From Brevinema andersonii (GTDB lineage: Bacteria > Spirochaetota > DYKD01): a DNA stretch of 40,318 bases. Position numbers and translations under genes: made by a program. How positions within the stretch are numbered: the first letter of the stretch is position 1; each line of letters opens with the position of its first letter. This document shows, in pieces, positions 34,121 through 38,883 of the stretch. Below the pieces are notes generated by a model that was not told the DNA's origin, did no database searches, and saw only the letters and a program-made list of their open reading frames with translations. The stretch covers positions 1 to 40,318 of the forward strand of contig DYKD01000026.1 in NCBI GenBank assembly GCA_020722765.1, written 5' to 3'.

Positions 34121-35092
34121 ATGAAAAAGAACATTTTTTTTTCAAATTCTTTAATCAAGACTTACAAGCTCGTACGAAAAGATTTGGATAAGTTTCTCCA
34201 AAATTCCGGTTTTAAAGTAGGATTTGAGCTTCTCAAGGCTGATGCCTGTCCTTCGGAAAAAAAACACCAGAATGCCATGTTTGTGATAAGTGAAAAAGAC
34301 CTTAAAGACGCCTTTTACGCAAAAAAGAAGAATCTCGTAATATTTCGGAAATCATTAAAAGTGGAACGTCGGATAGGCCGGGTGTTCCTGCCACTTCCAA
34401 ACAAGACAACTGCTTCCAGAACAGCCCTTATTATCGCTACTTTTCTGGAAGATGTCCTGTATGCTTCCCTGTATGAGGACACTCTCAAATCTTTGACAGC
34501 TTTTGAAAGCTACGCTGACCTTTCCAGATCTGAACTTCTCAGCATGCGTCAGGTCTTAGAAGCTCAAGAAAAATTACAGGAATACAATCGCGCTGAACAT
34601 ATGCAAAAAGAGGACATCATTAAGGCGCATGAACGTGTGAGTGACTTAAGCAGGATTGAACGTCTTTCTTATGACAAGGTTCTCCAGGCATGGGAGATTT
34701 TTTCAGAACTCATCCGCAAGGAACTGATAGAATCGCGGAAGGAGTCTTCTGCGCTGGAAAGAGTCCTCGAACTGAGCAACAAGGAACGCAAGGACAATGA
34801 ACAGACTATAGACGCCATGGATAAAACGATAGAACTCAGCCGGAAAGAACGTATTGAATCGGAGAGTACATTTAAGGCTGAAGAGAACGTGATGGAATTC
34901 AACAGGGTTGTAAATATCGATGATAACAGTTTCTTGGACAATGTCTCTGAGTCCGAGCTTCAGGCTATCCTGAAAAATGAGGCTGTCTGGAATAGTCTGG
35001 CAGAAACAGACCAGCAAGCATTGATTTCCATTATTAAGGCGCTATTTAAGATTTTATTGAAACGCAAGCATTCCAGTGGCTTGAACAGCTAA
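34121..35092 (+). CDS. Hypothetical protein with seven 21-residue tandem coiled-coil repeats
   Basis: 323 residues, no recognised family. An N-terminal domain (1-122) of mixed structure, with FEDVLYASLYED-like helices near its end, leads into seven tandem units of exactly 21 residues (123-269). In all seven, position 5 is Ala, position 7 is Glu or Asp and position 11 is Glu or Asp; position 14 is Arg in six and position 16 is Glu in six. Typical unit: KAHERVSDLSRIERL. Twenty-one is three heptads, so this should be one continuous amphipathic helix or coiled coil. A C-terminal helical tail follows. There is no signal peptide. Co-directional with the CHAT operon 203 bases downstream; a link is possible but unproven. 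Confidence 0.7.
   Translation: MKKNIFFSNSLIKTYKLVRKDLDKFLQNSGFKVGFELLKADACPSEKKHQNAMFVISEKDLKDAFYAKKKNLVIFRKSLKVERRIGRVFLPLPNKTTASRTALIIATFLEDVLYASLYEDTLKSLTAFESYADLSRSELLSMRQVLEAQEKLQEYNRAEHMQKEDIIKAHERVSDLSRIERLSYDKVLQAWEIFSELIRKELIESRKESSALERVLELSNKERKDNEQTIDAMDKTIELSRKERIESESTFKAEENVMEFNRVVNIDDNSFLDNVSESELQAILKNEAVWNSLAETDQQALISIIKALFKILLKRKHSSGLNS
34487..34927 (+). repeat. Seven tandem 63-bp units encoding the 21-residue repeat
   Basis: Seven in-frame units of 63 bases encode residues 123-269 of the preceding gene. Protein positions are strongly kept while the DNA units differ considerably, so these are old repeats under protein-level selection and not a recent slippage array. Confidence 0.75.
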
Positions 35093-35295: not shown

Positions 35296-36603
35296 ATGTC
35301 AATTCTGATTGTCTTAAGGGACTCTCCGCCTGATTTAAGACATTTTTATGTTGATAAGAAAACCATACCAGATATGCATGGACCTTTCTTTTTTTATTTT
35401 AAGGATTCAAACAAGATATATGGTCCTTCACAGGTTGTTAGTTCTGGTCGCATGAAATCAGTGACTTTTTTGAACAGAAGAGGAATTGTTGTATCGACTC
35501 CTTTTTACATAAATATACCTGGAGCAGGACATGTGCAGCTTTCCGAAATACAGTCACAGATGCTCCTGAATGAGTTGGAATATAATAACAGGTCACATTC
35601 AGGAATGGATGTTATTTTTCTGTCGTTTCAAAACCTTCAGATACATGTACGTCTTTTAAGGCAGTCTCCCCTGGTATCGGTTTCCGATTTTTCCTGGAAA
35701 ATCAATCTGAAAGAAATAAGGGATGCTTCTGCAAGGATTCATGCGGAACTAAAACAGATCTGTCGGGAGAAAGTTGAAGAGCTAAAACTGGAAAGGCTTC
35801 TCAGACTCCGTTCTTTTGGAAGGGACTTGTTTTCCTTGCTTTTCAAGGACGGATACTTCATAGATTATTTTTCTGGTTTGCGTAATGGCAATCTGGCAGT
35901 CCATCTTTCACCAGATCTTTTTTTCATCCCGTTTGAACATATGGCTATTAAGGAGCTTTTTTTATTGGAGTTCAGGATAACCCGTTTGTTGGATCATAAG
36001 CCTGGTTGGAAACTGGATTTGCAACCTGAAAGAAGAGGGATGCTTTTCATGTATGACAGGTCAGAGAAAGTTTTTGTGGGAGAATCCCAGAAACTTCTAG
36101 AACAATGGGGGGGAAGCGCGAGATTTGAGTCTTCTGCTGTGTCGATGCAGGCAACACCTGAATCAAGGTTAAAGGATCTTTATAAAAGAAGCAGATTCGT
36201 CCATTACATCGGTCATTCCACCATAAATAACAGCAGATATAAGTGGTTGAATGGGAAAAACAAACCTTTTTTACCAGCAGAAAGCCCTGCCCCAGAGTTC
36301 ATTTTTGCAGATTCCTGCCATGACCATTTCTATACAGGTTCGTTTCATAAGACTCTTTCCCTCTTTTTCAGGCAAGGATTGCGGTTTTGGATAAGCGGAA
36401 TGGCTGAAATCCGTGTTCATGGTGATTTTTTCCCCAGCCACTTCTATGAAAACCTTTTCCGTACAGGTTCTTTTGGACATGCTCTCCTACAGACCCGCAG
36501 ACAAATGGCAGATGCAGGGAAGTCTTCTTTTTTACAGTATATTTCCGCAGGAGACCAGAATTTTTCTTTTAGAAAGGAACTTTTTTTGAGAGGAAGTTGT
36601 TAA
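35296..36603 (+). CDS. CHAT-domain caspase-like protease
   Basis: 435 residues from ATG 35296; the upstream TTG extension has no support. The N-terminal 120 residues are beta-rich and unrecognised, a helical stretch (about 136-185) follows, and the CHAT domain covers about 195-430. Landmarks: NLAVHLSPDLFFIPFEHM (the usual strand before the PWE motif), catalytic His H307 in HYIGHST, and catalytic Cys C341 in FADSCHDH. CHAT proteases are caspase-clan Cys peptidases, often paired with TPRs; this one has none. It is joined without a gap to a sigma factor gene and then, by ATGA overlap, to an anti-sigma gene, so a cut of the anti-sigma protein is the obvious hypothesis. Both catalytic residues appear intact. 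Confidence 0.82.
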   Translation: MSILIVLRDSPPDLRHFYVDKKTIPDMHGPFFFYFKDSNKIYGPSQVVSSGRMKSVTFLNRRGIVVSTPFYINIPGAGHVQLSEIQSQMLLNELEYNNRSHSGMDVIFLSFQNLQIHVRLLRQSPLVSVSDFSWKINLKEIRDASARIHAELKQICREKVEELKLERLLRLRSFGRDLFSLLFKDGYFIDYFSGLRNGNLAVHLSPDLFFIPFEHMAIKELFLLEFRITRLLDHKPGWKLDLQPERRGMLFMYDRSEKVFVGESQKLLEQWGGSARFESSAVSMQATPESRLKDLYKRSRFVHYIGHSTINNSRYKWLNGKNKPFLPAESPAPEFIFADSCHDHFYTGSFHKTLSLFFRQGLRFWISGMAEIRVHGDFFPSHFYENLFRTGSFGHALLQTRRQMADAGKSSFLQYISAGDQNFSFRKELFLRGSC

Positions 36604-37542
36604 ATGGGAATGAAAGGAATCAGGCTGGATCTTGATGATCAGGCAATAAAATCTCTTATTGTGCAGTGGAAGTCAGAGCCTTCTGAAAAGAAGCTGATCC
36701 GAATCCGCGATATGCTTTCCAGCCTGATTTATGCCTATCCAGCCCGTGTTTTTAGCAGGTCTGAAGAAAGTTGTAGTGGTTTTTTCGAGTATGTTGCAGA
36801 ACGTCTTTCCAATATGCTTGATAAGTATGAACCGCAGGAGGCTCGTTTCACGACATGGTTTTTTATTGTCTTAAGGAACCACTATTTTAACTGGACAAAG
36901 AGCGAGAAGAGGCAGAACAGGATCAAGGAAATCCCCCTGAACATCCAAACGGATAATCCTGATGAAGAGATGGATCTGGGGGATTTCCAGCAACACAGGC
37001 ACTGGCATGAAAATATGGTTTCTGCAACAGTTGACCAGGAGGAGAAAAGGCTGATGATGATTCAACGTATCCTGAAGTCTTTGACTGCTCAACAGAAATT
37101 GGTTGTTTCCCTTTTGTTCTATCATCTGGATATTGAGGCTTTGCAATCTGTTTATAAAGGGAAACGAAAAATCATGGATGTATTCAAGGAATATAGCCGT
37201 ATCAACATGGATATGAAGGAAAAAAGAGATGCCCTTTCTGTGAAGATACGGATGTTGAGCGCTGAAATCACGGAGCTGCAATATAAGGAGAGATGTCTTT
37301 TGAACATCCTGCCAAAACCTGATGATCTTGAGGAAAAGCTTCAAACAATCAGGAAGGATTTAGCCAAAAAACGCAGGTTTCGGGAGGATCGGACAAGGGA
37401 TTTGACCACTCAAAATTTGAATATGCCTTATTCATGGGTGGGAGATGTGATCGGTCTGCCTGCTGTAAAAGTAAGGAAAACAATGGATAAGATCAGAAAG
37501 GTTTTCATGTTCCATTTTGAAAAAAACGAGGCACTGATATGA
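36604..37542 (+). CDS. ECF-like sigma factor with a coiled-coil insert in region 4
   Basis: 312 residues. Region 2 (about 35-105) ends in ARFTTWFFIVLRNHYFNW, the pattern of the -10-binding helix. Region 4 is split: its first half is LKSLTAQQKLVVSLLFYHL (158-175), then some 95 residues of charged helix and coiled coil (about 180-272), and then the recognition HTH YSWVGDVIGLPAVKVRKTMDK (277-296, the first residue not needed). The insert is unusual. The ATG follows the CHAT stop directly (AGGAAG-type site about 9 bases upstream), and its TGA overlaps the next ATG. Sigma identity is supported by the two zinc-finger anti-sigma-like protein next to it. Not similar to sigma-70 housekeeping. Confidence 0.75.
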   Translation: MGMKGIRLDLDDQAIKSLIVQWKSEPSEKKLIRIRDMLSSLIYAYPARVFSRSEESCSGFFEYVAERLSNMLDKYEPQEARFTTWFFIVLRNHYFNWTKSEKRQNRIKEIPLNIQTDNPDEEMDLGDFQQHRHWHENMVSATVDQEEKRLMMIQRILKSLTAQQKLVVSLLFYHLDIEALQSVYKGKRKIMDVFKEYSRINMDMKEKRDALSVKIRMLSAEITELQYKERCLLNILPKPDDLEEKLQTIRKDLAKKRRFREDRTRDLTTQNLNMPYSWVGDVIGLPAVKVRKTMDKIRKVFMFHFEKNEALI

Positions 37543-38279
37543 ATCATCTTAGTGTAAAAGTCATGTTGGATTGTCTGTTGGGAGAGACATTGCCAAAAGA
37601 GGCAAAACAACATTTGGAAACCTGTGCTGAATGTGGTCAGAAAATAGCCTCTCTACAGGAATCCATGAAAAAGGGGTTGGAAGAACAAGATTCCAAACCT
37701 TGCGTTACAGTTGATGCGAACCAGATAGCAGCCTATGTAGATCATCAGATGAGTTCTGCTGAAAAATCCAGATTTGAGAAACACCTCTTTTCCTGTTCCA
37801 CCTGTCTTGCAAGTGTACGTGACTTGATGTGTGATATGTCCGCATTCGGTCTGGAACCCTTGAAAGCAAAGAACATATTGCAAAAAAAAGTTGGGGCTGT
37901 GATTAGGGTTGTCAAAAAAGGACTGGATTTGGTAATGAACAACATGAGTAGGAAACCTGTCTTTGCCTATGCTGCAGCAGTGCGGGGAAGCCATCAGAAA
38001 AGCATTTTGCAGATGAAGTGGTCTTTGAAAAAAGGAAGCAAACAATATGAGGTTGTTTTAAAATATGTCGATGAGGGGGAGGCTGAATTGTTTATGAATT
38101 ACAGCTCTTCCAAACCTTGTAATGTGAGCATAAAACTGTTTAAGGATTCTCATGATATTGAGACAAAGATGTTTCATTTAGACAAGAAGAAAAAGGAATC
38201 CTGTTTTGGAGTCTTAAGCAAAGGGAAATATGTGTTAAAAGAGCAGGAAAGCGATTTGATGGGGTTTAGCTTGGAATAA
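37539..38279 (+). CDS. Soluble anti-sigma-like protein with two zinc-finger motifs
   Basis: 246 residues. Two HxxxCxxC motifs typical of zf-HC2 anti-sigma factors: H25-C29-C32 and H82-C86-C89 (HLETCAEC and HLFSCSTC), each after an amphipathic helix. There is no membrane segment, unlike most ECF anti-sigma factors, so the protein should be cytoplasmic. The C-terminal half is beta-rich (about 140-246) and unrecognised. Start overlaps the sigma stop by ATGA. It ends 4 bases from the convergent small CsgG-like gene. Proposed to hold the sigma factor in check and to be a substrate of the CHAT protease; this is inference. Confidence 0.78.
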   Translation: MNHLSVKVMLDCLLGETLPKEAKQHLETCAECGQKIASLQESMKKGLEEQDSKPCVTVDANQIAAYVDHQMSSAEKSRFEKHLFSCSTCLASVRDLMCDMSAFGLEPLKAKNILQKKVGAVIRVVKKGLDLVMNNMSRKPVFAYAAAVRGSHQKSILQMKWSLKKGSKQYEVVLKYVDEGEAELFMNYSSSKPCNVSIKLFKDSHDIETKMFHLDKKKKESCFGVLSKGKYVLKEQESDLMGFSLE

Positions 38280-38283
38280 GCGG

Positions 38284-38862
38284 TTATTTAAGTTTTGCCA
38301 AGGCTTTTCTTGCGGCTTTGTTAAAGGCAAGTTCCAAAGTATTATCGTTTCCAGTTCCTGTCCCAATATATTTGATAGTGCCGGTCTCGCTTTCTACGAT
38401 TTTCAATGAAATACCTGCAATATAACCTTTGACAGGTACTATCATGGCAATGAGCATTCCCGGTAGACCACCCAAGATGCATCCTGTGACAACACATGCT
38501 GTGCGAGGTCCTTTTTCCATGCCTTTTGTCATGCGAAGTTCAGAAATTGTTCCAATAACTATATATTTACAGCCTGCAACCTTCCCTAATTCTGTAGCTT
38601 GACTGGCATTTACAACGCCAGAAGCATTGAGGCTTTGTTCAGAAAGAAGCGCATCCAGACGGCTACGCTCAATCAGCGTGTATTCCCCTTTTTTCATTAG
38701 AAACATGGTAACCGAGTCGGAGGCAGTCTCTCCTGCTGTAGGAAACAAGGTTTGCTGTGAATTTTGGAAAGCCAGCACGCCTATTGTGTCATTTGCTATG
38801 ATAGTATTGATTGAAAAGACCAGTAAGTATATAAGTATGCAGGCTGATAATTTTAATTTCAT
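38284..38862 (-). CDS. Small exported CsgG/FlgO-like protein
   Basis: 192 residues. Signal peptide MKLKLSACILIYLLVFSIN with cleavage near IIA-ND. The mature part has the CsgG-type fold cues IGVLAFQNSQQ, MKKGEYTLIERSRLDALL, KYIVIGTISEL and a Gly-rich central hydrophobic stretch (CILGGLPGMLIAMIVPV), then AFNKAARKALAKL. GGAGG 5 bases before the ATG at 38862 decides against the ATG 12 bases earlier. Related in its core to the CsgG domain at 11689-12885, but with no barrel. Lipobox absent. Own promoter. Function unknown; envelope associated. Confidence 0.75.
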   Translation of the reverse strand: MKLKLSACILIYLLVFSINTIIANDTIGVLAFQNSQQTLFPTAGETASDSVTMFLMKKGEYTLIERSRLDALLSEQSLNASGVVNASQATELGKVAGCKYIVIGTISELRMTKGMEKGPRTACVVTGCILGGLPGMLIAMIVPVKGYIAGISLKIVESETGTIKYIGTGTGNDNTLELAFNKAARKALAKLK

Positions 38863-38883
38863 GAGTTCCTCCAAATAAAACGA

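Follow-up and report, generated by a model that had tools for sequence, protein, structure and literature searches.

The window, i.e., the whole 40,318-nucleotide stretch of Brevinema andersonii DNA (contig DYKD01000026.1) analysed here, contains a compact trio of genes encoding a CHAT cysteine peptidase, an ECF-like sigma factor and a soluble zinc anti-sigma factor. The genes and the features within them are as follows:

35296..36603, plus strand: CHAT cysteine peptidase gene, 435 aa, caspase/separase-like (clan CD), assigned from the Pfam CHAT matches of its family, the alignment and the fold of a homologue
35296..35535, plus strand: N-terminal DCD-like (PUA-superfamily-like) domain, about residues 1-80, tentatively a sensor
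36214..36216, plus strand: codon of the predicted catalytic His307, invariant in the aligned homologues
36316..36318, plus strand: codon of the predicted catalytic Cys341, invariant in the aligned homologues
36604..37542, plus strand: ECF-like sigma factor gene, 312 aa, assigned from TIGR02937, the Sigma70_r2/r4 matches of the family and a SigW match
~37129..37419, plus strand: coiled helical insertion splitting region 4, about residues 176-272, placed by the SigW alignment and alignment A6
37423..37512, plus strand: sigma region 4 helix-turn-helix, about residues 274-303, placed by alignment A6
37539..38279, plus strand: soluble zinc anti-sigma gene (ZAS/zf-HC2), 246 aa, with a C-terminal region of unknown fold
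37611..37634, plus strand: first HxxxCxxC motif, an extra copy absent from relatives (motif scan, alignment A5)
37782..37805, plus strand: second HxxxCxxC motif, the family-conserved copy, with H82, C86 and C89 invariant in alignment A5

The CHAT stop codon (TAA, 36601-36603) abuts the sigma ATG at 36604, and the sigma stop codon (TGA, 37540-37542) shares the bases ATGA with the anti-sigma ATG at 37539. The three open reading frames, spaced by 0 and -4 bases, do form the gapless operon that had been proposed in the initial annotation. Upstream of the trio lies a 323-aa open reading frame (34121-35092) made of repeated coiled units of about 20 residues and without a family match, and a CsgG/LpoB-like gene (38284-38874, minus strand; CsgG E 1.3e-14) is convergent with the trio.

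The window CHAT protein alone falls below all Pfam cut-offs, its best match being a C25 peptidase at E 0.09, so its family assignment rests on homologues and fold. Pfam CHAT (PF12770) matched 15 of the 17 full-length family members that were scanned, the best at 8.6e-14, and the profile of alignment A4 recovered the window gene at E 9.8e-119. Residues 307 and 341 of the product starting at ATG 35296 are His and Cys, the pair already noted in the initial annotation, and in the alignments both are unchanged in 14 mixed-type CHATs and in 17 full-length homologues. The active site looks competent and peptidase activity is predicted. A PDB profile search with the CHAT family matched SAVED-CHAT, separases, caspase and DdvA. 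For the fold we relied on an AlphaFold model of the CHAT homologue of genome G002 (pLDDT 88.8, pTM 0.87), which is about 17% identical to the window CHAT; this model matched separase (E 1.4e-11), Csx29 (E 2.5e-11, TM 0.53 on the query) and likewise SAVED-CHAT and DdvA, and it points to a caspase/separase fold for the CHAT protein. A model of the window CHAT itself, built from eight sequences, was too poor (pLDDT 54) and was excluded from the fold claim. No TPR was matched in the window CHAT or its homologues.

The N-terminal 120 residues of the CHAT protein were initially described as unrecognised; they instead include a domain that is conserved in homologues both linked and unlinked to the sigma factor and that we tentatively call DCD-like. 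The DCD matches come from homologues, the window copy being below detection, and the best of them (PF10539) scored 19.8 bits vs a cut-off of 27.8 and did not reach the threshold. Among 393 genomes, nine of the 11 best DCD matches fall exactly on a CHAT N-terminus; these nine represent two families and three genera, with seven of them from one genus. The N-terminus of the G002 model runs strand-helix-strand and then continues with more strands, which resembles the strand/helix pattern reported for EVE/DCD domains (PMC7641849). Among the EVE/DCD contexts described by Bell et al. CHAT is absent, as the word does not occur there (PMC7641849). One CHAT homologue matches Pfam EVE at 0.0015; an EVE identity of the N-terminus was rejected at an hhalign probability of only 1.6%, and DCD-like alone was retained.

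The window sigma factor passes NCBIfam TIGR02937 (48.0 bits vs a cut-off of 42.9). Sigma70_r2 is found in 10 of 10 family members and r4 in some, which agrees with the earlier sigma call in that regions 2 and 4 are both matched in the family. SigW aligns to positions 8-166 and 252-279 of the sigma profile with one SigW residue between the two blocks (profile position 166 pairs with SigW residue 156, and position 252 with residue 158). A coiled insertion of about 85-100 residues therefore interrupts region 4. At 312 aa the protein departs from the minimal ECF layout of regions 2 and 4 only (about 190 aa), and we term it ECF-like because the insertion sits inside region 4. The helix-turn-helix motif of its relatives reads SYxxIxxFLGxPxGTVSxGIxRxK (alignment A6). 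Sigma factors of this family, with their split region 4, are common across Spirochaetota whether CHAT is present or not.

The third protein passes Pfam zf-HC2 (39.4 bits vs a cut-off of 22.2), and the two HxxxCxxC motifs of the initial annotation were found again, beginning at residues 25 and 82. No membrane segment was detected in it, as no 19-residue stretch exceeds a Kyte-Doolittle mean of 0.85, and the earlier view of a soluble anti-sigma factor is upheld. A PDB search with the anti-sigma profile matched RsiW, another anti-sigma factor and DdvA, and Csx30 was not among these matches. From what is known of the family, the protein would be expected to bind the sigma factor.

The window genome is the sole member of its class among the genomes compared, and relatives were sought at phylum level; the window sigma as a single query retrieved no contigs, and an alignment-based query succeeded. 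The CHAT-sigma-anti-sigma order was found in seven further Spirochaetota genomes, which belong to three families other than that of the window genome (G011, G015, G002, G067, G038, G046 and G027), mostly with overlapping genes, although the G015 contig stops short of the anti-sigma position. In family f4 the trio is reordered as sigma, partner and CHAT, and the partner is without the zinc motif. Conservation of the trio in relatives, which had been put forward as a check on the locus, was therefore observed, in the same order in seven genomes and reordered in f4. Among the six other CHAT matches of the first phylum search, L011 is a true trio. L012-L015 were rejected because their CHAT is of a type that lacks the N-terminal domain, lies beside AMP-binding or pdxJ genes and has no sigma neighbours, and L010 was rejected with a frame interrupted by stops. 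L106, titled Candidatus Methylomirabilis, was also discounted as an example from beyond the phylum: it shares the gene order argF-CHAT-sigma-anti-sigma with G011 and is more likely a mis-binned Spirochaetota contig. In several families (L013, L015, L056, L062 and others), CHAT is followed by the gene of a small CxxCCG-containing protein (e.g., L015:6577-7281) that matches nothing in Pfam and may be an additional partner.

The sigma profile matches 175 of the 393 phylum genomes at E<=1e-4. At the co-occurrence thresholds (sigma E<=1e-11, CHAT E<=1e-12), the sigma factor is present in 111 genomes and CHAT in 83, and all 83 CHAT genomes are also sigma-positive. The Fisher P of ~3e-61 for this co-occurrence ignores shared ancestry, and counting by family is more appropriate: sigma is found in 24 families and CHAT in 16, all 16 nested within those with sigma. 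Under the strictest thresholds tried, eight of 78 CHAT genomes fell just under the sigma cut, with a weaker sigma match still present. Since the sigma factor occurs without CHAT and CHAT of this family was not found without the sigma factor, CHAT seems to rely on the sigma pathway. Many relatives retain sigma and partner without CHAT, so the pair is the older part, and CHAT either joined it later or was dropped from it. In CHAT-less lineages such as f14, f25, f33 and f34, sigma open frames of about 280-350 aa suggest that the region 4 insertion is present there too, so the insertion is not simply a protease target; the partner is similar in length where examined, and the anti-sigma factor is thus not visibly tailored to CHAT.

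Linkage of CHAT to the sigma gene was not seen in 11 of the 16 CHAT families. In the AT-rich family f9 (Brachyspira-like, a name inferred) and several others, CHAT lies elsewhere in the genome, and the unlinked f9 CHAT retains the same N-terminal domain. CHAT genes were found directly downstream of tsaB, argF or pdxJ with gaps of -59 to 133 bases, and in other genomes an AMP-binding enzyme gene precedes CHAT. The position close behind tsaB, argF or pdxJ is consistent with a latent enzyme that is steadily expressed and argues against a merely induced effector.

Neither cas genes nor a CRISPR array nor closely spaced direct repeats were found in the window, and Cas7-11 is absent from the window locus. 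The trio had been called CRISPR-free, which holds for the locus and the relatives tested but not for the genome, where Cas7-11 and type III loci are present elsewhere. This Cas7-11 (1629 aa, complete-looking, E ~1e-263 to solved Cas7-11; L137:127-5016, minus strand) is alone on the 5157-base contig C59 of matching GC, and further type III genes lie on contigs C42 and C25. The 14 relatives tested gave no full Cas7-11 match and one weak partial match, so the trio does not need Cas7-11. Contig C42 of the window genome also carries a second module, in which a TPR-CHAT gene (CHAT E 1.1e-22) is divergent from the genes of a sigma factor and a zf-HC2 protein, both similar to their window counterparts. 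The module and a type III CRISPR-like cluster encoding Cas1 and RAMP proteins stand about 9 kb apart on C42 (L004:5342-9351; L136:621-11157). The TPR-CHAT of the module was rejected as Csx29, since a PDB search at E<=0.01 gave no match and none of 281 genomes contained a close relative.

Several known systems share parts of this arrangement. In CalpL/CalpT/CalpS, a protease cuts the inhibitor and the sigma factor is freed; unlike in the trio, the protease is a Lon-SAVED protein, and the system is cyclic oligoadenylate-gated and CRISPR-linked. The trio sigma and ZAS domains match SigW and RsiW, but neither RsiW/SigW nor ChrR/RpoE includes a CHAT protein; RsiW is membrane-bound and ChrR responds to singlet oxygen. 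Type III-E CASP/Craspase (Cas7-11, Csx29, Csx30, CASP-sigma) likewise has a CHAT protein with a His/Cys dyad beside an ECF-like sigma factor and an inhibitor, and the CHAT fold of the window family, as seen in the G002 homologue model, matches Csx29. The trio locus is, in contrast, without Cas7-11, TPR, Csx30 or an array, its inhibitor is a zinc-finger protein, its CHAT N-terminus is tentatively DCD-like, and it is chromosomal and widely inherited. Cleavage of the sigma inhibitor Csx30 by Csx29 is a demonstrated precedent (PMC10028731). In Myxococcus xanthus, the DdvA/DdvS pathway brings together an ECF sigma factor with ZAS and CHAT domains (PDB 8rot/8rw5), and DdvA was matched by both the CHAT and the anti-sigma profiles. 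DdvA is an anti-sigma factor whose trigger is unknown (PMC4374960); it is a single transmembrane chain, whereas the CHAT and anti-sigma proteins of the trio are separate and soluble. The ECF54 group has conserved CHAT, subtilase or carboxypeptidase neighbours, and proteolytic control was proposed for it (PMC8999054). The trio resembles the described ECF54 group in that an ECF-like sigma factor has a CHAT neighbour; ECF54 is described as being without an anti-sigma factor (PMC8999054), which the trio includes. Literature searches found no published account of a CHAT-sigma-anti-sigma trio. Given the type III-E CASP, DdvA and ECF54-CHAT precedents, the trio is not a new category and represents a known logic in a new form.

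We favour, with moderate confidence, the reading that the trio is a cytoplasmic protease-gated transcription switch in which CHAT cuts the anti-sigma factor on a signal and frees the sigma factor. One CRISPR type is known to use a protease to release a sigma factor, and the trio probably represents a form of that switch that operates independently of CRISPR. The zinc anti-sigma factor would bind the sigma factor and block its activity, and the CHAT protease would be produced steadily and held latent. A cytoplasmic signal may be sensed by the DCD-like N-terminal domain of CHAT or by a partner; the activated CHAT would then cut the anti-sigma factor (or its complex), probably in the linker or the C-terminal region, and the freed sigma factor would transcribe its regulon. 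The gene layout, the family assignments, the unchanged dyad, the repeated linkage, the nested co-occurrence and the fold of the homologue are direct observations; sigma/anti-sigma binding, the cut and the protein that is cut, the signal and the regulon are inferred. The second module on C42 and the Csx29/Csx30 and DdvA precedents speak for the scheme. Counting against it are the CHAT-less lineages that retain the sigma factor with its insertion and, where examined, a partner of similar length, the 11 CHAT families in which linkage was not seen, the f4 partner that has no zinc motif, and the use of a homologue of about 17% identity for the fold.

The linkage of the genes and the nesting of CHAT within sigma-positive genomes would be predicted equally if CHAT were the effector, i.e., if the sigma/anti-sigma pair controlled production of a cell-killing or cell-remodelling protease and CHAT belonged to the regulon; we regard this as unlikely, because tsaB, argF or pdxJ directly upstream of CHAT suggests housekeeping transcription and CHAT stands before the sigma gene in the operon. 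That CHAT is a non-proteolytic sensor or scaffold, which binds the ZAS protein and releases the sigma factor by a conformational change as DdvA may, draws on the occurrence of ZAS and CHAT on one chain in DdvA, but a His/Cys dyad invariant over deep divergence is unexpected for a pure scaffold and makes this quite improbable. Similarly hard to credit is a CHAT that acts on the sigma factor, for example by cutting within the coiled insertion, or on some unrelated substrate, beside an anti-sigma factor that responds to redox through zinc release like ChrR or RsrA. Soluble ZAS anti-sigma factors commonly answer oxidative stress (PMC8999054), and the window protein has its additional HxxxCxxC motif; the persistence of the insertion in the four CHAT-less lineages named above speaks against cutting of the sigma factor.

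As far as we know, CHAT cleavage of sigma inhibitors has been demonstrated only within a CRISPR system. The conserved chromosomal trio, if it works as a protease-gated switch, would mean that a protease-sigma switch exists independently of CRISPR, and it would be a candidate source of the CASP module. More speculatively, and on balance doubtfully, there may be an old CRISPR-independent CHAT-sigma pathway of Spirochaetota in which the DCD/PUA-like domain reads nucleic acid, e.g., damaged or modified RNA or DNA, activates the protease and thereby releases the split-region-4 sigma factor, and type III-E CASP would be a CRISPR capture of such a pathway. The trio would also offer a simple three-gene system for testing signal, cut and regulon, and would give a first function to the CHAT family carried by 83 of the 393 sampled Spirochaetota genomes.
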